In this document: in pieces, positions 28,816 to 42,115 of the stretch
Numbering within the stretch: position 1 is the stretch's first letter
Layout: every line of letters begins with the position of its first letter
Assembly (NCBI GenBank): GCA_002284895.1
Contig: CP015605.1
Span: 682,001 to 746,000, forward strand
Direction of reading: 5' to 3'
DNA length: 64,000 nt
From: Actinobacteria bacterium IMCC19121
GTDB lineage: Bacteria; Actinomycetota; Actinomycetes; Nanopelagicales; Nanopelagicaceae
Notes under the pieces: generated by a model
Database searches by the model: none
What the model was told of the DNA's origin: nothing
The model's input: the letters and a program-made list of their open reading frames with translations, nothing else
Made by a program: the position numbers and the translations under genes

Positions 28816-29271
28816 ATGAAACTTAAAGCCGCTCTTTTTATACTCATTGCAACATTGATAGTGGGAGTTAACGCACCAGCCTATTCTGAGGAGATTGTCC
28901 CAACTCGAGCCGAAGAAGTTGCAACATTACAAGTTAAGTACAAGGCCAATTTTGATACGCAGTACGCCCGATTTTTAGCCCTCAAGCCTAAGTTAATTAA
29001 TGATGCCGTTTCAAAGGCAATTCTAAAAGCTGCCATTGTTGACTTCTTAGATGTAAGAGCAATGATTGAGAAAAGTTTGCTAGATCCTGCTACTGAGGTT
29101 GCCTCAACAAAGGCATATGCATCTGAAGAGTTCGGTGAATTTGAAGTTACATTAGGCCAACTTGAATACGCAGCGGCTAGGAATAAGACGATAAACTGTG
29201 TTAATGGTAAGACTGTGAAGAAAGTTTCTGCAATTAAGCCCGTCTGCCCCAAGGGCTATACCAAGAAATAG
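28816..29271 (+). CDS. Small secreted protein with C-terminal CxKG-CPxGYK module
   Basis: The 151-residue protein has a signal peptide (MKLKAALFILIATLIVGV, cleavage near AYS-EE), a helical middle of about 100 residues, and a C-terminal two-cysteine basic segment, INCVNGKTVKKVSAIKPV then CPKGYTKK (29191-29268). The same C-terminal module ends four other secreted proteins between 31 and 38 kb. I do not recognise a named family for it. There is no ribosome site before the ATG, so translation may be leaderless. Confidence 0.62.
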   Translation: MKLKAALFILIATLIVGVNAPAYSEEIVPTRAEEVATLQVKYKANFDTQYARFLALKPKLINDAVSKAILKAAIVDFLDVRAMIEKSLLDPATEVASTKAYASEEFGEFEVTLGQLEYAAARNKTINCVNGKTVKKVSAIKPVCPKGYTKK

Positions 29272-29294
29272 ATTGAGGGATTTATACTAAACCC

Positions 29295-29675
29295 ATGTCT
29301 ATCGCCCACCATGTTTACACCGCCGTAGATTGCGCCAACCCCGAACCTCTCGCCCGCTTTTATGCAGAGATAACTGGTTGGGAAGTTGGAGAGCTAGAAG
29401 ACTCTGAAGATAAAGTGGAATGGGTCGATCTATTCCATGACGGTGTGCGCATGATGGCTTTCCAAAAAGTTGCCAATTACATCCCACCCACCTGGCCGGA
29501 AGGGCCCGTTCCACAGCAACTTCACTTTGATTTTCATGTGAAAGATCTAGATATTGGTGAAAGTAAAATATTGGCTATCGGTGCCACCAAGCATGCCGTG
29601 CAACCTGGTACAAATTTCAGAGTTTATTTAGACCCAGAAGGTCATCCATTTTGTTTAGTGAAGAATCCGCAGTAG
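29295..29675 (+). CDS. VOC family (glyoxalase/bleomycin-resistance-like) protein
   Basis: The 126-residue protein shows paired beta-alpha-beta halves of a vicinal-oxygen-chelate fold: HHVYTAVDCANPEPLARFYA, GWEVGEL, then QLHFDFHVKDLDIGE and VYLDPEGHPFCLV. The metal ligands would be a His in each half and a Glu. The actual reaction cannot be told: lyase, dioxygenase and antibiotic-binding forms share this fold. It lies 23 bases after the small secreted protein gene. Confidence 0.82.
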   Translation: MSIAHHVYTAVDCANPEPLARFYAEITGWEVGELEDSEDKVEWVDLFHDGVRMMAFQKVANYIPPTWPEGPVPQQLHFDFHVKDLDIGESKILAIGATKHAVQPGTNFRVYLDPEGHPFCLVKNPQ

Positions 29676-29679
29676 TGAC

Positions 29680-29880
29680 ATGTGGTTAAACAACAAACTC
29701 AAAGGGTTATTTTCAAGAAAGCCACGAAATGATGCATCTGAAAGCCGCCTTGATCCCAACGATAATCAATACCGCAGAATGAAATTTGGGATGAAGGCAG
29801 CTGGTGGTCTCAATGGCCAGCTCATGCGCAGAGCGTCCAATTTCACTGATCCAACGCCGTTAGATGAAGAGGAGTTTTAG
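29680..29880 (+). CDS. Small basic protein, 66 residues, unknown
   Basis: This is a short soluble frame (MWLNNKLKGLFSRKPR, then polar, ending DPTPLDEEEF) with a basic N-terminal half and an acidic end. It has no membrane helix. It begins four bases after the VOC gene stop, which favours a real gene. No family is recognised. Confidence 0.4.
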   Translation: MWLNNKLKGLFSRKPRNDASESRLDPNDNQYRRMKFGMKAAGGLNGQLMRRASNFTDPTPLDEEEF

Positions 29881-29952
29881 ATTCAGGTATATCCCGCCGA
29901 AAAGTGCCCATGATTGAGTGCTAAATCCTTATATTGCTGGCAGAATCTCCCC

Positions 29953-30924
29953 ATGATGAAAGGCCCATCAAAGAAATCTTTATTTTGGATTGTCTCTGGC
30001 GCAATTTTTCTTTCACTTGTTACATTTTTAAATGCACTAGACAGTGGTTCTTACAAATTAGATCCCAAATCAGAGAGCTTGTGGGCGCAGACAAGTGATC
30101 AAGACAAAATTGGAATTTATGTTCAGTTATTAGATTTCAATTCATCTTCACAGACACTCAAAGCACGTATTTGGCTTAGACCGCCCGAAAAATATGCATA
30201 CTCACTAGATAGTAGTGTTCAAGTTATTTATGACACCGCAGTAGATATCTCAGCATCAACAATTAACTACAATAGCGACGGCAACGTTGGTTATTGGCAA
30301 GCCAATCAATATTTACGAGCTATTGATGTGGAGTTAGATGCCGATAACAGCCAGGTTACGTCTCTTTATAATGATAAATGGTTCCCATTTGATAAGTACT
30401 CGGTTGCGCTAACTGGGCAAATACGATTCTTAGTTAAAGGTGGAAATACTGACAGTGTGAAAGATGATGTTTGGGAGTCACTGCCAATTGGAATTCAGCC
30501 CTACACAGCCAGCCTTTCAGGTTGGAGCGCTGAATATAAATTGGATTCTTTTGCTGGTGAGACTGTGGAATCTTCATTCAAAGATGGTCAGTACTTCACT
30601 TCAGACATTATTTTAGAAAGAACGACACTCAATAAAGTTCTTCTGCTCTTGTTAGGGTTAATTTTCCTCAGTGGCGGTTTTAGCATGTTAATGTTATTTC
30701 GCTCTATCTTTTTGGCACACCGCCCGCCTTCACTTTCAGGACTTATTTGGGCTGGAAGCACCGCTTTCACCATGATTTCAACACGAACTATTATTCCTGG
30801 GGATCCAAGAATTGGTGTGAAATTCGATTTGTTTGTCTTTTACCCCTCTTTGGTAATGTGCTTCATATCTGCAGGAGCTATGTTCTATCTCTGGATTTCA
30901 AAGGAGACCTGGACACCCGAATAA
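29953..30924 (+). CDS. DUF4436 family membrane protein
   Basis: The 323-residue protein starts MMKGPSKKSLFWIVSGAIFL with one N-terminal membrane helix. A large extracytoplasmic region (about residues 45-220; e.g. WFPFDKYSVALTGQI) follows, then three C-terminal helices (about 227-250, 261-280 and 291-312). This layout and the FPFDKY signature fit DUF4436, found mainly in mycobacteria and relatives and of unknown function. The in-frame ATG at 29914 has no better ribosome site. It lies just before the paralogous secreted protein genes. Confidence 0.68.
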   Translation: MMKGPSKKSLFWIVSGAIFLSLVTFLNALDSGSYKLDPKSESLWAQTSDQDKIGIYVQLLDFNSSSQTLKARIWLRPPEKYAYSLDSSVQVIYDTAVDISASTINYNSDGNVGYWQANQYLRAIDVELDADNSQVTSLYNDKWFPFDKYSVALTGQIRFLVKGGNTDSVKDDVWESLPIGIQPYTASLSGWSAEYKLDSFAGETVESSFKDGQYFTSDIILERTTLNKVLLLLLGLIFLSGGFSMLMLFRSIFLAHRPPSLSGLIWAGSTAFTMISTRTIIPGDPRIGVKFDLFVFYPSLVMCFISAGAMFYLWISKETWTPE

Positions 30925-31056
30925 AACCTTCTTAAGTGGAGAAAGTGCAGGTCGTTGTGCATAAATTGATGTCTATTTTTCGCATAAATATGGGGCTTTC
31001 ATTCGGTGTGAGGTGCGTAGTAATTTATCCCGAGTCACTGTGAATACGAGGTTATT

Positions 31057-32757
31057 GTGCGCAAGAAACTAGTTGCTCTGCTTTCAGTGCTCGCCCTGCT
31101 CTTAGCCCCCTCCTTGGTCCAAGCCCAGGCAGCTGACTCTGTTATTCCAGACGAGCAACTGATGACACCACGCCCTCCAGAAGAAAACACGGGGGGATAT
31201 TCAGGAGCTTATTTCGATGATCAGAAAACTCTCTTTAGAGCCTTCACTTACGTAGAAGCATGGGCTGGAACTAACTACGCAACCAATGGAGCCATAACTT
31301 GTTTGTCATCCCAGGAAGAGCCATGCAAAAGCAGTAACTACTTATTTTTTGAAACACCACTCTCTCCTTGCTCAGATACTAGAACGCGAGATTGCGTAGC
31401 TAGTCTTTCTGGACGAATCGGAGAGAACGCTCTTGCAAATGCAACACTTGTAGACACTCTCACCTCAACATTTACGCAACTAAGCAATAACTTACTCAAT
31501 AGATATAACACCCCCTTTAAAGGTGACATTGCAAGAGGTGTTCCTGACAGCGGCCAAGTATCTTTGTGGACTATTCCTGGGATGCAGCATCAAGGTGGCA
31601 ACCTATTCCTTTTAATTCCTAAATTGAATGCAGAATTTCAAAATGTTGCAGGAACCAATCCATCCAGTTTAGATGTAGGGCTCTTTGCAGTCTCTAAAAT
31701 TCCAGTTGCAGGCGTGCAGCTCGATACTTGTTTTTTCAGTACAACGACTGATTGCTACAAGCGTTGGCCGTTTCCACAAAACGCAGCATTTAAAGTTTCA
31801 ATTAAAACTGGGGCAAAAATTGTTGGCTGGTTCCATGGGAGATTGAGTGCACCAGAAATAAGTAGTGAGAAGTTAAGTGATGGCCAAACGCTCATTAATA
31901 TTGAGGGCGCAGTGACCACAGTCCCCATTCTTGCCGTTTGGGCGAAAAACACTGACCTGCCAAGTAAGCTCAACACGATGATTCAGGAAGAATTTGTTCA
32001 ACGTGGGAATCAATTTGCTGGGGTTGCTTATTACTTGGGAAATCAATCAGATCGAAGCACACAGGCGGTTATGGATGAACGTAATCCCTCATTTAATGAC
32101 AATTTCTTTGAAAGATACATGCTCTGGGTTGATGTAGCAAAAGATAAGGCCTATGCCTCTGTATCCACCTGGTCCTTTAGAACTATGCAGAATGCGCAGG
32201 GATATGAAAAATGTATTGGTGACTCAGGTGTTGCAGGAATGGTGACCACCAATTCAAATGCATATATTGCTGGCCCACCTAAGTTTGAAGATGGAAATCT
32301 TGCTTATCGAGTTGCATCTCCACATTTTGATTCAAAAGGTCAGGTTCAAGTTGGAACCTATGACCTTGCAATTCGATCAGATGTAGCACGATGCATCTAC
32401 GGTTTCACTAGCGCACCAATTCAAGCAACCCTCAGCGTTATTTATGCTGATGGCGAGTCAAAGAATGCAACAACTCTTGTATCAGAGAAAAATAATTGGC
32501 TACGACTTTCAGCCAAGGGATTCACATATTCTTCTCCAACCATCAAGGTCAAGCTGTCACAGGAAGCGCCAGCACCAACGCCAACTCCAACGCCAACTCC
32601 AACTCCAACTCCGACAGCAACCCCAGTTACTGATCCAGCACCTTCGGCTAAGCCAGTTGTGGCTAAGAAAGTTACAATTACTTGTGTGAAGGGTAAAACA
32701 GTGAAGAAGGTAACTGCAGTTAAACCAGTTTGCCCTGCAGGGTTTAAGAAGAAGTGA
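31057..32757 (+). CDS. Large secreted protein with Pro/Thr linker and C-terminal CxKG-CPxGYK module (paralogue 1)
   Basis: The 566-residue protein has a signal peptide (MRKKLVALLSVLALLLAPSL, cleavage after QAQA), a cysteine-containing core of about 470 residues, and a linker of Pro-Thr dipeptides (32574-32616). It ends in the basic two-cysteine module ITCVKGKTVKKV then PVCPAGFKKK (32671-32754). Core motifs shared with the next gene are ITC near the start, IVGWFHGRL, GMVTTNSNAY and the segment from GTYDLAI to LSAKGFTYSSPTIKVKLSQ. Start is GTG. No enzyme motif is visible. It overlaps paralogue 2 by four bases. Confidence 0.8.
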   Translation: MRKKLVALLSVLALLLAPSLVQAQAADSVIPDEQLMTPRPPEENTGGYSGAYFDDQKTLFRAFTYVEAWAGTNYATNGAITCLSSQEEPCKSSNYLFFETPLSPCSDTRTRDCVASLSGRIGENALANATLVDTLTSTFTQLSNNLLNRYNTPFKGDIARGVPDSGQVSLWTIPGMQHQGGNLFLLIPKLNAEFQNVAGTNPSSLDVGLFAVSKIPVAGVQLDTCFFSTTTDCYKRWPFPQNAAFKVSIKTGAKIVGWFHGRLSAPEISSEKLSDGQTLINIEGAVTTVPILAVWAKNTDLPSKLNTMIQEEFVQRGNQFAGVAYYLGNQSDRSTQAVMDERNPSFNDNFFERYMLWVDVAKDKAYASVSTWSFRTMQNAQGYEKCIGDSGVAGMVTTNSNAYIAGPPKFEDGNLAYRVASPHFDSKGQVQVGTYDLAIRSDVARCIYGFTSAPIQATLSVIYADGESKNATTLVSEKNNWLRLSAKGFTYSSPTIKVKLSQEAPAPTPTPTPTPTPTPTATPVTDPAPSAKPVVAKKVTITCVKGKTVKKVTAVKPVCPAGFKKK

Positions 32758-34529
32758 GAAAACGGTTTGTAAGACTTACGCTCTCTATTTCTCTGATATT
32801 TGCCTTATTTTCACCAGCTTCAATTTCTAGTGCTGCTGATCCAAGGGGATTAGTTCCACAACCAGCAAATACGGCACGTATGATTTTTGCAGATATTCCT
32901 CGAGGCTCGGGAGAGTTTTCTTATGTGTATGGAGTTCTTGGCCAGCACCCCAATACCTCGGTGATTTCCTGCAAAGGAATAAAAGAGAGTGGATGTGAGA
33001 ATGCAAGTTCATTAATGTTGAACTTCATTGTTCCGCCATGTACCGAGAGTTCTAAGCCAACAGATATGTGCATTAAAGAACTTTCATTTGCAAATTCCGC
33101 TGGAAAATTCGAAAAAGCAAAATTAATGTATGAGGTGCCTACAGTAAAAATTTTGGCTAACGAAAGTGCCAAGACCCCAGCTGGTGGTGGCATAAGCGTT
33201 TGGCAAGGCCCTGCAGCCAATAATTCATCTGGAACGGACACCTATGGTGTGCAAATTGGTATTCGCTACAACATTGACTACAACCCACAGACTTTTCAGC
33301 CTGGAGTTGCATACGTGTTTGGATTTGAAGCTGAAGTAATTCCAGTTAGTTTCAAATCTGGAAGCCAATACAAGTTACCTGGAGGCTTTAAAGTCTCTGA
33401 TACCGAGTGTGCTTGGAACGAGGACGGAAAATGTGCCATGAGACAGGAGTTTGGTTCAGCCCTGCCTATCTCACTTTCTTTTCAAATGGACAGTCGAATT
33501 ACTGGGTGGCTCTCCGGTCGCATGAAAGATACGGGAATTGATTTTAGTCAACTCACACCCTCAACAAACTTACTCACTGTTACCGGCACACCTATTGATG
33601 TTCCTATGGGTTATGCCGATCTAACGGAGGCGGACTTGGCAAAAAATCCAGCAGCAAAGGAAACTTTCACACAACCTGGATCACAATGTGTAGCAGGAAA
33701 TACTCCTTGGGCATGCGGACTTGCTTCTATTTGGCGTCCGCAATCAGATCGCTTGAATTGGCAGTGGGGCCCGTATTCCCTAGAAAGATTTAGAGTCATG
33801 AGTGCGACTCCGACTGAGTTCGCCGCTTTTGAAGCAAAATATTTGAATATGGGTTATGCGAAGATTTTTCAGCAGTATCTCAAGACTTTCCCGGTGCGAA
33901 ATTCACAGTGGAAAATTCAAGGTTTGGATCGCTCAGGATTTAGAGAAGGAAATTGGCCAGCTTGTATTACTGATTCGACAAAATTTAATGGAATTGTCAC
34001 AACTAATGCGATGTTAAATGATGTGAGTCCAGCGCGTTTTGAAGATGGCTCTCTGGTCTATGACGTTGCAGGAGCTCACGAAGCTTATGACGGTTCAGTG
34101 TTTAAGGGTACGTATGACCTAGTAATGAGCTCTAGCGTTGCACGATGCCTCTATAACTTCACAAGTGCACCAATTAAGGCAACTATCTCCATTATTGCAA
34201 GTGATGGAACGGTTCAAAGTGTTGCAACTGAAGCGGTGAGTGAGCGAAACGGATGGTTGTCTCTTAGCGCGAAGAACTTCACATTCTCTTCTCCAACAAT
34301 CAAGATTAAGCTTTCTCAAGATGCAACCCCAACACCTGTAGCAACACCAACCCCAACGCCTGTAGCAACCCCAACGCCTGTAGCAACCCCAACACAGAGC
34401 TCAACTCCATCGACATCGATAAAACCAGCTATTGCTAAGAAAATAACAATTACCTGCGTAAAGGGTAAGACGGTAAAGAAGTTCACTGCAGTTAAACCAA
34501 CATGCCCAGTGGGCTATAAAAAGAAATAG
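32754..34529 (+). CDS. Large secreted protein with Pro/Thr linker and C-terminal CxKG-CPxGYK module (paralogue 2)
   Basis: The 591-residue paralogue of the preceding product starts at a GTG overlapping its stop by four bases (GTGA). It has a signal peptide (MRKRFVRLTLSISLIFALF, cleavage near SSA-AD), the motif ISCKGI near the start, TGWLSGRM, GIVTTNAML and the GTYDLVMSSSVARCLYNF to LSAKNFTFSSPTIKIKLSQ segment. A TPVATPTPTPVATPT linker follows, then the module ITCVKGKTVKKF, PTCPVGYKKK (34443-34526). The function is unknown. Coupled translation suggests the two act together. Confidence 0.8.
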   Translation: MRKRFVRLTLSISLIFALFSPASISSAADPRGLVPQPANTARMIFADIPRGSGEFSYVYGVLGQHPNTSVISCKGIKESGCENASSLMLNFIVPPCTESSKPTDMCIKELSFANSAGKFEKAKLMYEVPTVKILANESAKTPAGGGISVWQGPAANNSSGTDTYGVQIGIRYNIDYNPQTFQPGVAYVFGFEAEVIPVSFKSGSQYKLPGGFKVSDTECAWNEDGKCAMRQEFGSALPISLSFQMDSRITGWLSGRMKDTGIDFSQLTPSTNLLTVTGTPIDVPMGYADLTEADLAKNPAAKETFTQPGSQCVAGNTPWACGLASIWRPQSDRLNWQWGPYSLERFRVMSATPTEFAAFEAKYLNMGYAKIFQQYLKTFPVRNSQWKIQGLDRSGFREGNWPACITDSTKFNGIVTTNAMLNDVSPARFEDGSLVYDVAGAHEAYDGSVFKGTYDLVMSSSVARCLYNFTSAPIKATISIIASDGTVQSVATEAVSERNGWLSLSAKNFTFSSPTIKIKLSQDATPTPVATPTPTPVATPTPVATPTQSSTPSTSIKPAIAKKITITCVKGKTVKKFTAVKPTCPVGYKKK

Positions 34530-34557
34530 AAGTTTTAGCTGCTAATTTCTGTAAATC

Positions 34558-35718
34558 TTACGGAATAACTAGGACCTTAGTCTCAACAAAAGTTGTAACA
34601 GTCTTAGAGCTAATCTTCTTATAGCCAGTCGGACAACTCTTTCCAATGACTGTCTTTTTCACCTTGCCCTTTTGACACACCAATTCAGTTGCTTTCACGG
34701 CCTTGTAGAGAGTTGTGTAACTAGGTGTTGGGGTTGGTGTGGCAACCTCTTTAGCAACGGGAGTTTGCGTTGCTTGTGCAGCAGGTTGTGGTCCGCCGGG
34801 AAGTGGTCCGCCGGGAAGTGGTCCGCCGCCAGGTGGAGGGCCGCCCATACCTGGCATTCCACCCATTCCACCTGGTTGCATTCCGCCATCTTTAGAGAGC
34901 GCTGGAGTTCCTGCAAAACAGTTGATTGTGGATCTATTACTTTTTTCTTCAGTTAAAACATAGTGATAGATGCCTGCTGGAAACTCAGGTGTGGGACTTG
35001 TTATTCCATTGCACTCATCTAATTGAGAAGAAGAAACTAGTTTGCCATTGATGTCTTTGTTGCCATAGATAAGAAAGCCATCAAAGGCAATTCCTAAAAT
35101 ATGTGAAGGTCCGCCGGACTTATCAATAACTGAAGTTACGCACGGTGGCATGCCGTGATAGTGATACATCCCGCCCATTCCTGGGTGGCCATTACACACA
35201 TCTAGAAAGCCCCACTTAACACCGCTGGAATCGGTCACATAAACATTTCCTGTAACAGCAACTGTCTTACCGTCACCCTCATAAGGATTAAAAATAACTG
35301 CACCATTTGCAAGAATTCCAATAGGACCTAGTGAAGTTGAAGTAATGGAAGGCGCCTTTTTTGGGCTCAAAGTTATTGTGTAATTTAATTTCTGGGCATA
35401 AACCAAATTACTAGTCAGACCCAGCGACACATCATCAGAGCTTTTGGGCACAACTACCCCTGCATTTGGCTTGGCATATTTCTCTGCCATCCAATTTGGA
35501 AGGCCATCTGAATCGATGACGACGCTATCTCCAGAAAAACTTAACTTCACATTACTAAACCAGGATGCTTTCGAAAGAGCTAGCTCTTGGGGAGTTGCGG
35601 CATGAGTTACTTGGGCAAATGCAATGGCTGCCACCCACGGCAACACCGGTGCCAAGATCAGAGCGATTAACTTCTTTGCACCTGAATGCTTGCGCACGGT
35701 GGTAGTTGGATTTGTCAT
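34558..35718 (-). CDS. Secreted YHYH-domain protein
   Basis: The 386-residue protein has a signal peptide (after a basic SGAKK start, hydrophobic to AQVTHA), and a YHYH domain with CNGHPGMGGMYHYHGMPPC, GIAFDGFLIYG and GIYHYVLTEE. A Met/Gly/Pro-rich linker of MGGMPGMGG and PLPGG units comes next, then a C-terminal module variant (LVCQKGKVKKTVIGKSC, PTGYKK) with an extra Thr/Val tail. YHYH proteins are of uncertain function, and the clustered His and Met suggest metal binding. GGGGAGA lies five bases before the ATG. It converges on paralogue 2 across 28 bases. Confidence 0.78.
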   Translation of the reverse strand: MTNPTTTVRKHSGAKKLIALILAPVLPWVAAIAFAQVTHAATPQELALSKASWFSNVKLSFSGDSVVIDSDGLPNWMAEKYAKPNAGVVVPKSSDDVSLGLTSNLVYAQKLNYTITLSPKKAPSITSTSLGPIGILANGAVIFNPYEGDGKTVAVTGNVYVTDSSGVKWGFLDVCNGHPGMGGMYHYHGMPPCVTSVIDKSGGPSHILGIAFDGFLIYGNKDINGKLVSSSQLDECNGITSPTPEFPAGIYHYVLTEEKSNRSTINCFAGTPALSKDGGMQPGGMGGMPGMGGPPPGGGPLPGGPLPGGPQPAAQATQTPVAKEVATPTPTPSYTTLYKAVKATELVCQKGKVKKTVIGKSCPTGYKKISSKTVTTFVETKVLVIP

Positions 35719-35781
35719 TAATCTCCCCGTATGGCTAATCCTTAGGGTGTTGAGTTTAAGGGCTTTTAGGTAGCACTTGGG

Positions 35782-35824
35782 CTTACTTACCTAAGTTGGG
35801 GGTGCGGGATTCCAACCCCCGACC
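35782..35824. repeat. Degenerate tRNA-Lys 3' end copy (candidate attachment site, copy A)
   Basis: The stretch CTTACTTACCTAAGTTGG, then a T-arm-like GGATTCCAACCCCCGACC, aligns with the 3' end and 3' flank of the tRNA-Lys gene at 39685-39757. The flank ACTTACxTAAGT and the T-loop AACCCCCGACC are kept, with several substitutions elsewhere. The same orientation as the intact tRNA gene suggests a decayed left junction of an element inserted at that gene. Confidence 0.6.
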
Positions 35825-35882
35825 AGGACACTACCCAAAGGCATCTTCACATGTGGGAAATAGCGTTCTAGTATTTTCCCTT

Positions 35883-38081
35883 ATGAAGAGAAGAAAAGTT
35901 CTTGCTTTCACGAGTTTTCTCACTTCATGCCTTCTGGCATTAACACTTCTCCCGACTATAAGTGCAGCCGATACGTTACCGCCACCAACAAATCCCGGTC
36001 CTGCCGGCGCTCCAGGTCCAAGCGTGACTCCACCGGATGATCCTGCAGTCATTAAAGATGCACGTTCGATTTTAAGAGGAACTACACCGACCACTTCAAA
36101 TAATGCCATGGTGTATTTCGATCAAAATCAAGTTAACTTCAAGTCATTCATTTCTGTCGAAGATCACCCCGCCGGCCAAGCAGGTGGGACGCCAATAATC
36201 TGCCTTTCACCAGATGATGCCAAATGCACAACAGCTTTTTCAGATACAAAGTATCAGCAGATCAAATATGACGTTGCCATGGGAAGTTGTGCTGCCAGAG
36301 AAATTGCGGCGTGCATCAACTCATTCTCATTAGTAAAGACTGATGGGAGCAAAGTGAAGGCTGAGGCTATAAAACGTATTTATAGCAAAACCAGTCCTGG
36401 GTGGGCATCCACATTTGATGCAAAGACAAATACCGGGTATCCGGGATCAGATGGCCCATGGATTTGGAAAATAACTGATGGTGGAGTCAGCACCGAATAT
36501 CTGATTCTTGGACTAGTTAGTGCACTTTTTAATCGAATGCCAAGTGGATCTGGTTGGGATGCCTCTGAAAAGAGTTTGAGATTATCTATATATCCTGTTA
36601 AGAAATACGAGAACGCTGCCTATACCGAGGGCGGAAGTGAAACTGCTTGTCTAGCTGTTGATACTGGGGTGTGTTATCAACGCATCGCCTTTGCAAAGGG
36701 CTTGCGATTCTCATTAGATCTTCGCCTACCTAAAGTGATCACGGGGTGGCTCAATGGCCGATTAGATAAGCCATCTGCATACACAGAAAACTACAATGAC
36801 AATTACTCTGAGCTAATCGTTGAAGCTGATCCACTTGAAGAGATCATTACGGGTAAATGGCTTCCCAATACAGGCGCAGTAACTCAATATCTCTCTGATT
36901 CAAAGAAAGGATTGACCGCTGCAGCAAGTGCAACAAATAACCTGGATATTGCAGGCACCGATCCAGATGATCAAAATGCAGTGAAATATTACGCTTCACT
37001 GGCCAAATTATTCGGAGAAGCAGCCCTTACTAATTCACTCACTTGGCGCCTAAACACCACTTCAAGCGGAGCTCAAACTTTTGATCAGAGCTGCCAGAAA
37101 AGCGAAGGCGTGCAGGGCATCGTTACTAGCAATGCTTCTGTCTATGAACCTGGATCACCTCAGTGGGATGGTGATCAGGGCAAATTGGCTTACCGAATTG
37201 CTGCCCCAATATATAAATCTGATGGGAAGACTGAAAATGTTGGGCGGTATGCATTTACCATGCGCGCTGATCTCATTAAATGCGTTTACGGTGTGACAAC
37301 TCTTCCGGCCTATGCGACGGTAGAAGTAAGTTACGGTGATTCTGGTGAAGTAAAAGCTGCAACTACAGCACTCGGAACCAATAAGGAATGGGTTTATCTG
37401 CATGCAAATAACTTTGCATTCACTGGTGCACCACCAACAGTTAGTGTGAAGCTGGAGGGTTGGAAGAAGGCAACCACGCCAACGCAACCAACTCCACCCA
37501 ATGCGCCAACACAACCAACTCCACCCAATGCGCCAACACAACCAACTCCACCCAATGCGCCAACACAACCAACTCCACCCAATGCGCCAAACCAACCAAC
37601 TCCACCCAATGCGCCAAACCAACCAACTCCACCCAATGCGCCAAACCAACCAACTCCACCCAATGCGCCAAACCAACCAACTCCACCCAATGCGCCAACA
37701 CAACCAACTTCACCCACTCCACCGTCTGCAAGTGATGTAAAAGTCACAATCACTTGTATAAAAGGAACGACTAAAAAGACTGTGACTGGGTTGAAGCCAA
37801 CCTGCCCAACAGGTTACAAAATGCAAGCAGCTCAAGTGACAATTACTTGTACAAAGGGGACAGTAAGCAAAAAAGTTACGGGCACCAAACCTCAATGCCC
37901 AACTGGATACAAGATGAGTGTTTCTGCCACAAACCCAACACCACAAATTGGCAACTCAACCCCAGGCAATGGTGAGACAACCATTACTTGTGTAAAGGGC
38001 GGGGATGTAAAGAAAGTAACGGGTAAAATTCCCGTTCAATGCCCCGAGGGTTATCAAATGCAAGCCGCACCCAGCCCTTAG
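35883..38081 (+). CDS. Large secreted protein with 27-base-repeat linker and three C-terminal CxKG-CPxGYK modules (paralogue 3)
   Basis: The 732-residue secreted protein has its signal peptide after MKRRKVLAFTSFLTSCLLAL. Its core shares features with paralogues 1 and 2 (IICLS near the start, ITGWLNGRL, GIVTSNASVY, YAFTMRADLIKCVYG). The linker is eight units of QPTPPNAP(T/N) encoded by a 27-base tandem repeat. The end has three modules, at 37743-37823, 37836-37916 and 37976-38062. The upstream extension of the frame to 35796 is an artefact of the tRNA fragment. I chose ATG 35883. No enzymatic motif is visible. It lies inside the tRNA-Lys-bounded segment. Confidence 0.78.
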   Translation: MKRRKVLAFTSFLTSCLLALTLLPTISAADTLPPPTNPGPAGAPGPSVTPPDDPAVIKDARSILRGTTPTTSNNAMVYFDQNQVNFKSFISVEDHPAGQAGGTPIICLSPDDAKCTTAFSDTKYQQIKYDVAMGSCAAREIAACINSFSLVKTDGSKVKAEAIKRIYSKTSPGWASTFDAKTNTGYPGSDGPWIWKITDGGVSTEYLILGLVSALFNRMPSGSGWDASEKSLRLSIYPVKKYENAAYTEGGSETACLAVDTGVCYQRIAFAKGLRFSLDLRLPKVITGWLNGRLDKPSAYTENYNDNYSELIVEADPLEEIITGKWLPNTGAVTQYLSDSKKGLTAAASATNNLDIAGTDPDDQNAVKYYASLAKLFGEAALTNSLTWRLNTTSSGAQTFDQSCQKSEGVQGIVTSNASVYEPGSPQWDGDQGKLAYRIAAPIYKSDGKTENVGRYAFTMRADLIKCVYGVTTLPAYATVEVSYGDSGEVKAATTALGTNKEWVYLHANNFAFTGAPPTVSVKLEGWKKATTPTQPTPPNAPTQPTPPNAPTQPTPPNAPTQPTPPNAPNQPTPPNAPNQPTPPNAPNQPTPPNAPNQPTPPNAPTQPTSPTPPSASDVKVTITCIKGTTKKTVTGLKPTCPTGYKMQAAQVTITCTKGTVSKKVTGTKPQCPTGYKMSVSATNPTPQIGNSTPGNGETTITCVKGGDVKKVTGKIPVQCPEGYQMQAAPSP
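37485..37700 (+). repeat. 27-base tandem repeat, eight units, in a coding linker
   Basis: Eight back-to-back copies of a 27-base unit encode QPTPPNAPT or QPTPPNAPN. The eight units are nearly identical, with the variation in the last codon (ACA versus AAC). It lies between the core and the C-terminal modules of paralogue 3. Such in-frame repeats can change copy number by slippage and alter linker length. Confidence 0.93.

Positions 38082-39852: not shown

Positions 39853-42115
<2,263 letters not shown>

Follow-up and report, generated by a model that had tools for sequence, protein, structure and literature searches.

A lysine-rich, two-cysteine module at the ends of exported proteins in freshwater actinobacteria and their probable phages: a candidate surface-retention tag

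Introduction

What is a short, lysine-rich segment with two cysteines doing at the ends of exported proteins whose bodies differ, and could it keep them on the cell? The question arises in a 64,000-nucleotide stretch of DNA (the window) from a 'Ca. Planktophila' relative, in which five exported proteins carry seven copies of a module of about 30 residues. In the literature excerpts available to us, no account was found of how exported proteins remain on these very small cells. Proteins are named here by the first coordinate of their genes, as follows.

28816..29271, + strand: small exported protein of 151 aa, whose residues 123-151 form the module, without a Pro linker; body cluster 3 (9 members)
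29182..29268, + strand: module copy 1 (G000:C1:711182-711268), profile E 1.7e-14
30982..31007, + strand: promoter-like site GCATAA-N16-CGGT, ending 49 bp upstream of the 31057 start codon
31057..32757, + strand: exported protein, 566 aa, Pro/Thr linker and C-terminal module, from the largest body family; the next gene overlaps
32665..32754, + strand: module copy 2, profile E 3.4e-15
32754..34529, + strand: paralogue of the 31057 gene, 591 aa, with C-terminal module; AlphaFold model
34437..34526, + strand: module copy 3, profile match, predicted hairpin 564-570 / 573-579
34558..35718, - strand: YHYH-domain exported protein (PF14240, 97.6 bits against a cut-off of 25); body cluster 10; divergent module near the C-terminus
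34612..34695, - strand: module copy 4, the divergent one, E 1.8e-8 against a profile including this copy; 13 residues between Cys
35883..38081, + strand: protein with three modules and a PTPPNA-type repeat linker, belonging to the largest body family
37740..37826, + strand: module copy 5, profile match
37833..37916, + strand: module copy 6, profile match
37974..38063, + strand: module copy 7, profile match, 16 residues between Cys

Results

The module and its chemistry

The shared module is real. All five reading frames of the original prediction lie at their predicted positions, the three copies assigned to the 35883 protein are copies 5-7, and the signal peptides in all five proteins and Pro-rich linkers in four are visible by eye; for the 35883 gene, the ATG at 35883 suits the signal peptide better than an upstream TTG. 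The bodies of the 31057, 32754 and 35883 proteins are alike, and those of 28816 and 34558 are each different. The claim that the proteins end in the motif describes three of them well, with 3 residues beyond the final Tyr/Phe, and fits the 35883 and 34558 proteins less closely, with 8 and 20 residues beyond it. The seven copies match a profile at E 3e-15 to 2e-8, values that are partly circular as the profile includes them, and the most divergent is that of 34558 (36 bits vs 53.5-57.6 for the others). The same genome holds 12 further copies, one of them broken; when this genome was queried with a single window copy, E was <= 6e-4 for 18 of its 19 matches and just 0.63 for the 19th, the 34558 copy.

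Copies rich in Cys and Lys went into the profile, which makes the counts of cysteines and charge lean high; read in that light, both cysteines are present in 213 of 213 copies, and the mean net charge is +9.0 per module vs -0.36 for body 30-mers, with charges of at least +6 in 94% and 0.3% respectively. Acidic residues are nearly missing and there is no hydrophobic segment. The predicted spacing of 16 residues from first to second Cys is correct as an offset (15 residues between, 205 of 213 copies), with exceptions in the 34558 protein (13) and the third copy of the 35883 protein (16). The pair presumably forms a disulfide; a search of 17 complete genomes for VKOR, one of the enzymes by which disulfide formation can be catalysed, found it in none. 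Structure prediction, which had been proposed as a check, gives a confident hairpin for the module of the 32754 protein (AlphaFold, residues 564-570 and 573-579, pLDDT 88-92). A profile comparison with an N-terminal two-Cys motif gave no similarity.

To gauge constraint we compared codons in 16 of the 19 own-genome matches, leaving out the divergent, longer and broken copies. Codons are shared at identical residues at a frequency of 0.434 vs 0.393 expected at saturation, so synonymous codons are nearly randomised and selection evidently keeps the peptide: judged from sequence, the module is under purifying selection.

Comparison with known families

No curated family covers the module above its own cut-off, in agreement with the original prediction, which named no family. 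Pfam gave none over the module in the five window proteins (below cut-off, for example, PF12662 at E 0.11), nor in 30 proteins drawn from 29 of the 35 clusters (clusters 20, 21, 24 and 25 lay outside the scan), where overlaps below cut-off include PF25443 and PF07382. NCBIfam models placed nothing over the module in the five window proteins, and a PDB sequence-profile search returned one match, at E 0.075 over 14 residues, which we take as chance. By direct inspection, the five window proteins do not have the C-terminal arrangement of LPXTG, hydrophobic stretch and basic end, and sortase (PF04203) was found in 0 of 17 complete genomes, the same search being positive in 3 of 14 control genomes.

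Position, export and variety of the tagged proteins

The loci studied are the best-scoring ones, and 267 module frames were reduced to 203 distinct frames by identical module ends. The module lies within 5 residues of the stop in 192 of the 202 frames with a visible C-end, and a simple rule detects a signal peptide in 152 of the 162 with a visible N-end. Modules in the middle of proteins, which the original prediction had named as evidence against itself, occur for part of a second lineage: tandem internal copies in five of 25 frames, and a module following the signal peptide in four, all of these also looking exported by eye. Many module copies in this lineage have Arg in place of Lys.

The bodies fall into 35 clusters among the 196 that were clustered, short or low-complexity ones being excluded; we term these BLAST-distinct, not unrelated, since two clusters are both trypsin-like. 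Pfam body types include Trypsin, Laminin_G_3, Peripla_BP_6, DUF1501, Phytase-like, Acyl_transf_3+SGNH, RCC1 and Neocarzinostatin, and a lipoprotein-like body and a multi-TM acyltransferase also bear the module. Against the Trypsin gathering score (PF00089, 20.6 bits), the proteins at loci L179 and L206 score 41.4 and 17.7 bits; among 21 trypsin-like members, GDSG is present in 12, GTSGS in 3 and neither in 6, so that protease activity is not assured. For the fold of the largest body family, the best E that Foldseek gave against the PDB was 1.6e-3, short of the limit of 0.001, and query TM was 0.05-0.14 among the best 50 matches. Most linkers (106 of 167) are neither Pro-rich nor AKEQL-rich. 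An extra TM-like segment is present in 7 of 169 tagged signal-peptide proteins vs 50 of 128 untagged neighbours; the latter include ordinary membrane proteins, which confound this comparison. Depletion of the lipobox among tagged proteins is not significant (p 0.06).

Distribution among genomes

Of 151 genomes from the order Nanopelagicales, 114 contain the module, vs 3 of 396 over the whole phylum, so that it is not a chance pattern; a second actinobacterial family has it in 32 of 150 genomes. The 17 complete genomes comprise six that are tag-rich (16-23 copies) and eleven that are tag-poor (0-2), from which it follows that the tag is dispensable; 'Ca. P. lacus' is an example of a tag-rich isolate. 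In a scan of a genome collection, among 80 of 134 confirmed stretches a few titles, taken as titles alone, name Chloroflexi, Microbacteriaceae, Streptomycetaceae or groundwater Actinomycetota.

A sigma factor and a promoter-like site

Neighbours were surveyed at 79 loci plus stretches of the own genome, clustering whole proteins, module included, and reading the 32 commonest clusters by eye. The commonest untagged neighbours are a protein with one transmembrane segment (9 loci), an ABC-transporter-like ATPase (9) and a sigma factor (7); the sigma factor and one-TM protein are the tightest, and the order sigma - membrane protein - module gene recurs at 7 loci, the sigma gene overlapping the one-TM protein gene. 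The sigma gene of the window's own genome lies at G000:C1:462870-463472. No transpeptidase was recognised by eye in these 32 clusters, of which the sigma, one-TM and two others were also family-scanned. The sigma protein of locus L020 matches PF04542, PF08281 and TIGR02937 above their cut-offs (38.9 vs 24, 37.7 vs 25.7 and 65.2 vs 42.9), placing it among ECF sigma factors; the best family match, SigE-family TIGR02983, stays below its cut-off of 141.55 (114.7 and 103.2 bits for two proteins). No Pfam or NCBIfam model matches the membrane protein at E <= 0.01.

Both the sigma operon and the GCATAA-N16-CGGT site accompany the main body family. The match at 30982..31007 is the single one in the window, where 0.09 are expected, and each of the 20 promoter-like sites lies ahead of either a module gene or a truncated member of the family. 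On body-only clusters, one family has the motif upstream of 19 of its 81 genes, with 2 of these sites directly adjoining the start codon that was chosen, and the 50 other genes have none. Allowing one mismatch gains no module gene and raises the controls from 1 to 5 of 476. The viral loci yielded no such site. ECF sigma regulons with a membrane anti-sigma factor are a known arrangement, and the overlapping gene pair resembles it, with candidate targets both adjoining and elsewhere; it differs in having a membrane protein without such family matches and candidate targets that bear the tag. The pair probably switches on part of the largest tagged family through this site.

Phage copies

Thirty-seven viral contigs encode the module, in every case at the C-terminus (0-3 aa from the stop, 37/37), and all 23 distinct viral tagged proteins have a signal peptide. 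Among 16 of the 37 viral loci scanned, 11 records have WhiB over cut-off, a WhiB-like gene marking an actinophage, and the module-bearing viruses probably infect these lake bacteria. The tagged phage proteins include secreted trypsin-like ones and a surface-layer-like protein, and in one phage protein the module lies beyond the point at which two bacterial homologues terminate. The surface-layer-like protein matched 16 of 101 genomes, many through the tagged end alone; just 4 of the 151 genomes carry a surface-layer homologue, too small a number to compare with tag number. In an AlphaFold model of a phage protein the module hairpin has pLDDT 79-84 and the body is poorly modelled (pLDDT 59.5, pTM 0.32). 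With PHROGs, two of three tagged viral proteins gave no match and the third hit, at E 0.0056, a family without an assigned function. By tblastn, neither a 26-residue query against cultured phages and plasmids, a weak test for so short a query, nor a 562-aa phage protein against cultured phages gave a match.

Discussion

The reading we prefer, regulation included, is that the module is a non-covalent surface-retention tag on exported proteins that phages also use, to which we give a probability of roughly 0.6. The module would be a self-folding, disulfide-closed, polycationic beta-hairpin at an end, mostly the C-terminus, of signal-peptide proteins, and would probably hold them on the cell surface by binding non-covalently to a polyanionic component of the envelope, in a Gram-positive lineage in whose complete genomes sortase was not found. 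Flexible spacers, where present, may keep the body off the surface. A dedicated ECF sigma/membrane-protein pair would activate part of the largest tagged family, and phages would tag their trypsin-like and surface-layer-like proteins probably to site them on the infected cell. Counted against this explanation are the failure to find VKOR (0/17), the scarcity of the CDP-glycerol teichoic-acid enzyme (1 of 17 complete genomes), the dispensability of the tag and the many linkers neither Pro- nor AKEQL-rich, together with the internal and N-terminal modules of the second lineage (9/25) and the confinement of the motif to 19 of 81 genes of one family.

The original prediction had joined retention with sorting. 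Its retention half agrees with a mostly terminal module, nearly always behind a signal peptide and on many bodies; its sorter, a single genome-wide partner, was not recognised by eye among the commonest neighbours. A processed signal, read by a dedicated enzyme that attaches the protein covalently as sortases, exosortases and the T9SS do, would suit the C-terminal position, the near-fixed Cys spacing and the division into tag-rich and tag-poor genomes, which could mirror the presence of a partner. We consider it unlikely, as the module lacks a hydrophobic segment, occurs three times in tandem in one protein and as tandem internal pairs, follows the signal peptide in one family, and has a sigma factor and a one-TM protein as its tightest neighbours, in a lineage where sortase was not found in 17 complete genomes. 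A little less likely again is a module that targets outside matter (dissolved humic matter, algal or prey surfaces, other bacteria) in the manner of an exoenzyme carbohydrate-binding module; this would account for a polycation on trypsin-like and other enzyme-like bodies, but makes less sense on a lipoprotein-like body, a multi-TM acyltransferase or a surface-layer-like phage protein.

That the disulfide-closed end has no binding role, and shields secreted proteins from carboxypeptidases or aids folding, would fit its terminal position, its conserved Cys pair and its frequent place after low-complexity linkers. Such a cap leaves unexplained the +9 charge with its Lys/Arg exchange, the tandem copies and the narrow phyletic range, and we regard it as improbable. 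Least credible by far is a functionless, recently spread duplicate or mobile DNA segment: copy number varies and one copy is decayed, but synonymous sites are nearly saturated while the peptide is conserved, and 35 body clusters and a second family carry it.

Lineage-restricted C-terminal tags on many different exported proteins are familiar from the T9SS C-terminal domain and PEP-CTERM/exosortase. The module is like them in this, but is without their ~80-residue sandwich or TM helix, belongs to a Gram-positive host and has no partner that we found. With LPXTG/sortase signals it shares a C-terminal place on exported Gram-positive proteins, a spacer ahead and a positive end; unlike them it lacks LPXTG and the hydrophobic stretch, has a Cys pair and tandem copies, and comes without a sortase match in the 17 complete genomes. 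The non-covalent wall-binding domains LysM, WxL, SH3/GW, SLH and CWB2 (PMC5817068, table 1) are portable, repeatable and set behind linkers, and retain proteins non-covalently as we propose for the module; the module differs in its ~30 residues, single Cys pair and near absence of acidic residues.

Tentatively, and at slightly under even odds, we suggest that abundant, genome-reduced freshwater actinobacteria in which no sortase was detected have a surface-display system that forms a kind by itself, in which a polycationic hairpin docks many exported proteins on the envelope, an ECF sigma regulon serves part of the major cargo family, one other actinobacterial lineage shares the tag, and phages, by putting it on surface-layer-like and protease-like proteins, remodel the host surface during infection. 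If retention of this kind is correct, one short peptide would list by sequence the proteins that these cells display, a simple binding assay would be on offer, and the module would single out phage genes whose products act at the host surface during infection.

Module copies in the window genome

The five open reading frames (28816, 31057, 32754, 34558 on the minus strand, and 35883) and the seven module copies originally predicted in the window were all recovered, with small corrections needed. The window's own genome is a single contig of 1,506,415 bases (the window being G000:C1:682001-746000), and a profile search gave 19 module matches in it, seven inside the window and 12 elsewhere; with one window copy as query, E values are at or below 6e-4 for 18 of these, and 0.63 for the divergent copy at 34558. 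One of the 12 outside copies is decayed, with a TAG stop and one Cys changed to Tyr (L020:9308-9397, in a locus of the module search), and sits between two intact tagged genes. Among 16 own-genome copies of equal length, the same codon is used at 43.4% of positions with identical residues, versus 39.3% expected under synonymous saturation, a closeness which argues that selection, and not recent duplication, maintains the peptide.

Long antisense open reading frames (window 37155-37753, minus strand) cross the PTPPNA repeat linker and are probably repeat artefacts, not genes. Downstream, at 39853-40500, lies a GmrSD_C/HNH-type protein (PF07510, 71.6 bits against a cut-off of 23) with a likely signal peptide and no module.

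Anatomy and predicted structure

We retained 203 distinct module-bearing frames for counting. The C-terminal end is visible in 202, and in 192 of these no more than 5 residues separate the module from the stop; the distance is 6-30 residues in six and greater in four, counts that lean towards canonical copies because the loci are the best-scoring ones. The last four form a single family in which the module directly follows the signal peptide. By a simple rule, a signal peptide is present in 152 of the 162 frames with a visible N-terminal end, and several of the other 10 are truncated or decayed. In a second lineage, another actinobacterial family, the module is C-terminal in 16 of 25 frames, follows the signal peptide in four and forms tandem internal pairs in five.

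The proteins stripped of their modules (196 bodies) fall into 35 BLAST clusters, 17 of them single proteins; some clusters are distantly related and two are trypsin-like. Pfam matches above cut-off, in a scan of thirty proteins drawn from 29 clusters, include Trypsin, Trypsin_2, Laminin_G_3, Peripla_BP_6, BIg21, Neocarzinostatin, fn3, DUF1501, RCC1, Phytase-like, DUF3472 and Acyl_transf_3+SGNH. All 213 module copies have exactly two cysteines, separated by 15 residues in 205, and carry a mean net charge of +9.0 with 0.1 acidic residues per copy, compared with -0.36 for body 30-mers, in a set for which the search profile itself favours basic two-cysteine copies. Arginine replaces many of the lysines in the second lineage (for example in L247 and L253), so what is conserved appears to be the charge and not the lysine itself. 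In 44% of proteins, the 40 residues upstream of the module are less complex than 95% of body segments. The Pro-rich linker of the original prediction characterises the window and does not extend to tagged proteins at large: 33 of 167 linkers are Pro-rich, 28 rich in A/K/E/Q/L, and 106 neither.

AlphaFold modelled the 32754 protein with a mean pLDDT of 79.3 (42 rows) and predicts the module as a two-stranded hairpin (pLDDT 88-92) after a low-confidence linker; a phage-encoded tagged protein gives the same hairpin (pLDDT 79-84) behind a 26-residue helix, with a poorly predicted body. Foldseek returned no PDB match at E <= 0.001 for the body of the largest family, which includes 31057, 32754 and 35883, and the module had no convincing sequence match in PDB. 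No description of the module was found among titles and abstract openings, subscription papers and preprints lying outside this scope, nor is it mentioned in the accessible portions of PMC11039613, PMC10202952, PMC6802176 and PMC5817068.

A mirror-image module, GxxC-(15)-C-x-K-x-G-x-K (mostly KSGKKLVWNKG), lies directly after the signal peptide in eight loci (L047, L079, L115, L135, L157, L158, L171 and L176), with a Pro-rich linker next in several. These are eight of 11 pattern matches, three being discarded as chance frames. It has no Pfam match above cut-off in three proteins tested and does not resemble the C-terminal module in a profile comparison; it is possibly a second terminal tag.

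Distribution

Module matches (E <= 1e-4) are present in 114 of 151 genomes of the window genome's order, including 81 of the 104 of good quality, and in 13 of 15 genera. A phylum-wide draw of 396 genomes gave three, the window's own genome and two from a single further family. This second family is probably freshwater Acidimicrobiia, judging from the record titles of L105 and L143; 32 of 150 of its genomes match, confined to two of 21 genera. When one genome per species was scanned by pattern across all phyla, 134 stretches were confirmed; 80 were kept, almost all of them actinobacterial by record title and one Chloroflexi by title alone. Copy number is uneven within the window's family: of 17 single-contig genomes, six carry 16-23 copies and eleven 0-2. 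One copy (L136) is on NZ_CP016769.1, 'Candidatus Planktophila lacus'. The records of L118, L130, L134, L152 and L177 are metagenome-derived and bear the titles 'Bifidobacterium breve' or 'Streptomyces griseus'; their tagged genes resemble Nanopelagicaceae ones, and the titles look wrong.

ECF sigma genes and a promoter-like motif

In seven loci, L020 among them, an ECF sigma gene, a gene for a protein with one transmembrane segment (one-TM) and a module gene stand in that order; two of these loci come from one genome. The one-TM gene precedes a module gene in 9/9 loci, in a set of loci selected because they hold a module.

L020:10871-12170 (G000:C1:462870-464169), ECF sigma gene overlapping the one-TM protein gene
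Window 30982-31007, GCATAA-N16-CGGT, the only site in the window, upstream of the 31057/32754 pair

The sigma gene scores above the ECF cut-offs and below that of the SigE subfamily. The outer domain of the one-TM protein has two cysteines, WQWNW near its end and no family match, and the L020 protein is a possible new type of anti-sigma factor. Nine loci have an ABC-transporter-like ATPase in the vicinity of tagged genes (for example L134:9100-10077).

A spaced-motif search found GCATAA-N16-CGGT upstream of 19 of 131 module genes versus one of 476 neighbouring genes, counts that are descriptive because discovery and counting used the same set. The sole control gene is, by eye, a largest-family member cut by a contig end, and all 20 sites in 775 kb precede module genes or this truncated relative; 599 scrambled versions gave a mean of 1.3 sites and a maximum of 9 in the same 775 kb. 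The distance from site to chosen start codon is 22-57 bp in 17 of 19 cases, and the other two sites abut the codon. Allowing one mismatch adds no module genes and raises the controls to 5/476. Grouped by body-only cluster, the sites belong to 19 of 81 largest-family genes and 0 of 50 others, and none is found in viral loci. From the gene order, we infer that the ECF sigma factor reads this motif.

Phage-encoded tagged proteins

A scan of viral contigs gave 37 module loci, in all of which the module ends 0-3 residues before the stop, and all 23 distinct frames have a signal peptide. They form two body clusters, 10 frames being trypsin-like and 13 (566-574 residues, no Pfam match) surface-layer-like, a label assigned by eye. 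The trypsin-like cluster has 21 members including the 10 viral ones, with chromosomal members such as L164, and contains GDSG in 12, GTSGS in three and neither in six. Phage hallmark neighbours include a terminase and an endolysin in L190, an endolysin in L185 and a tail-fibre-like gene in L189. Of 16 viral records tested, 11 have a WhiB-like gene scoring above the Pfam cut-off; PMC10202952 gives WhiB as a key indicator of actinophages. HslV-like peptidase genes lie near phage tagged genes at L184:1320-1844, L185:3107-3628 and L190:9152-9676, assigned by a PHROG match for L185 and by resemblance for L184 and L190.

L190:3396-5084, surface-layer-like phage protein, just after the terminase gene
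L216:355-2052, bacterial homologue without module
L217:1510-3369, bacterial homologue without module

The surface-layer-like protein has a homologue in only four of 151 genomes of the order. The L216 and L217 proteins (35% identity) end at LQKALLKK and LQKLILKR, where in alignment the phage protein continues into the module, a boundary which argues that the tag was gained, or lost, as one unit.

Anchoring and interpretation

No sortase was detected in 17 complete genomes by a search that was positive in 3 of 14 control genomes, and VKOR was likewise found in 0/17. A further TM-like segment is present in 7 of 169 tagged signal-peptide proteins versus 50 of 128 untagged neighbours, a comparison group that probably includes many ordinary membrane proteins; a lipobox is present in 3/169 and 8/128 respectively, a difference that is not significant (p 0.06). 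The module could be a sorting signal that is processed, although this is less likely because tandem, N-terminal and internal copies exist. It is best explained as a non-covalent surface-retention tag, because a portable basic hairpin ends exported proteins that mostly have no other visible anchor, sortase is undetected, and the module is shared with viruses.

The hairpin would hold exported proteins on the cell surface non-covalently through a polyanionic ligand, which is unlikely to be classic glycerol-phosphate teichoic acid since the CDP-glycerol polymerase family is present in only one of the 17 complete genomes. For the phages, our guess is that the tag most simply attaches protease-like or coat-like proteins to the infected cell, where they would perhaps block superinfection or free progeny.
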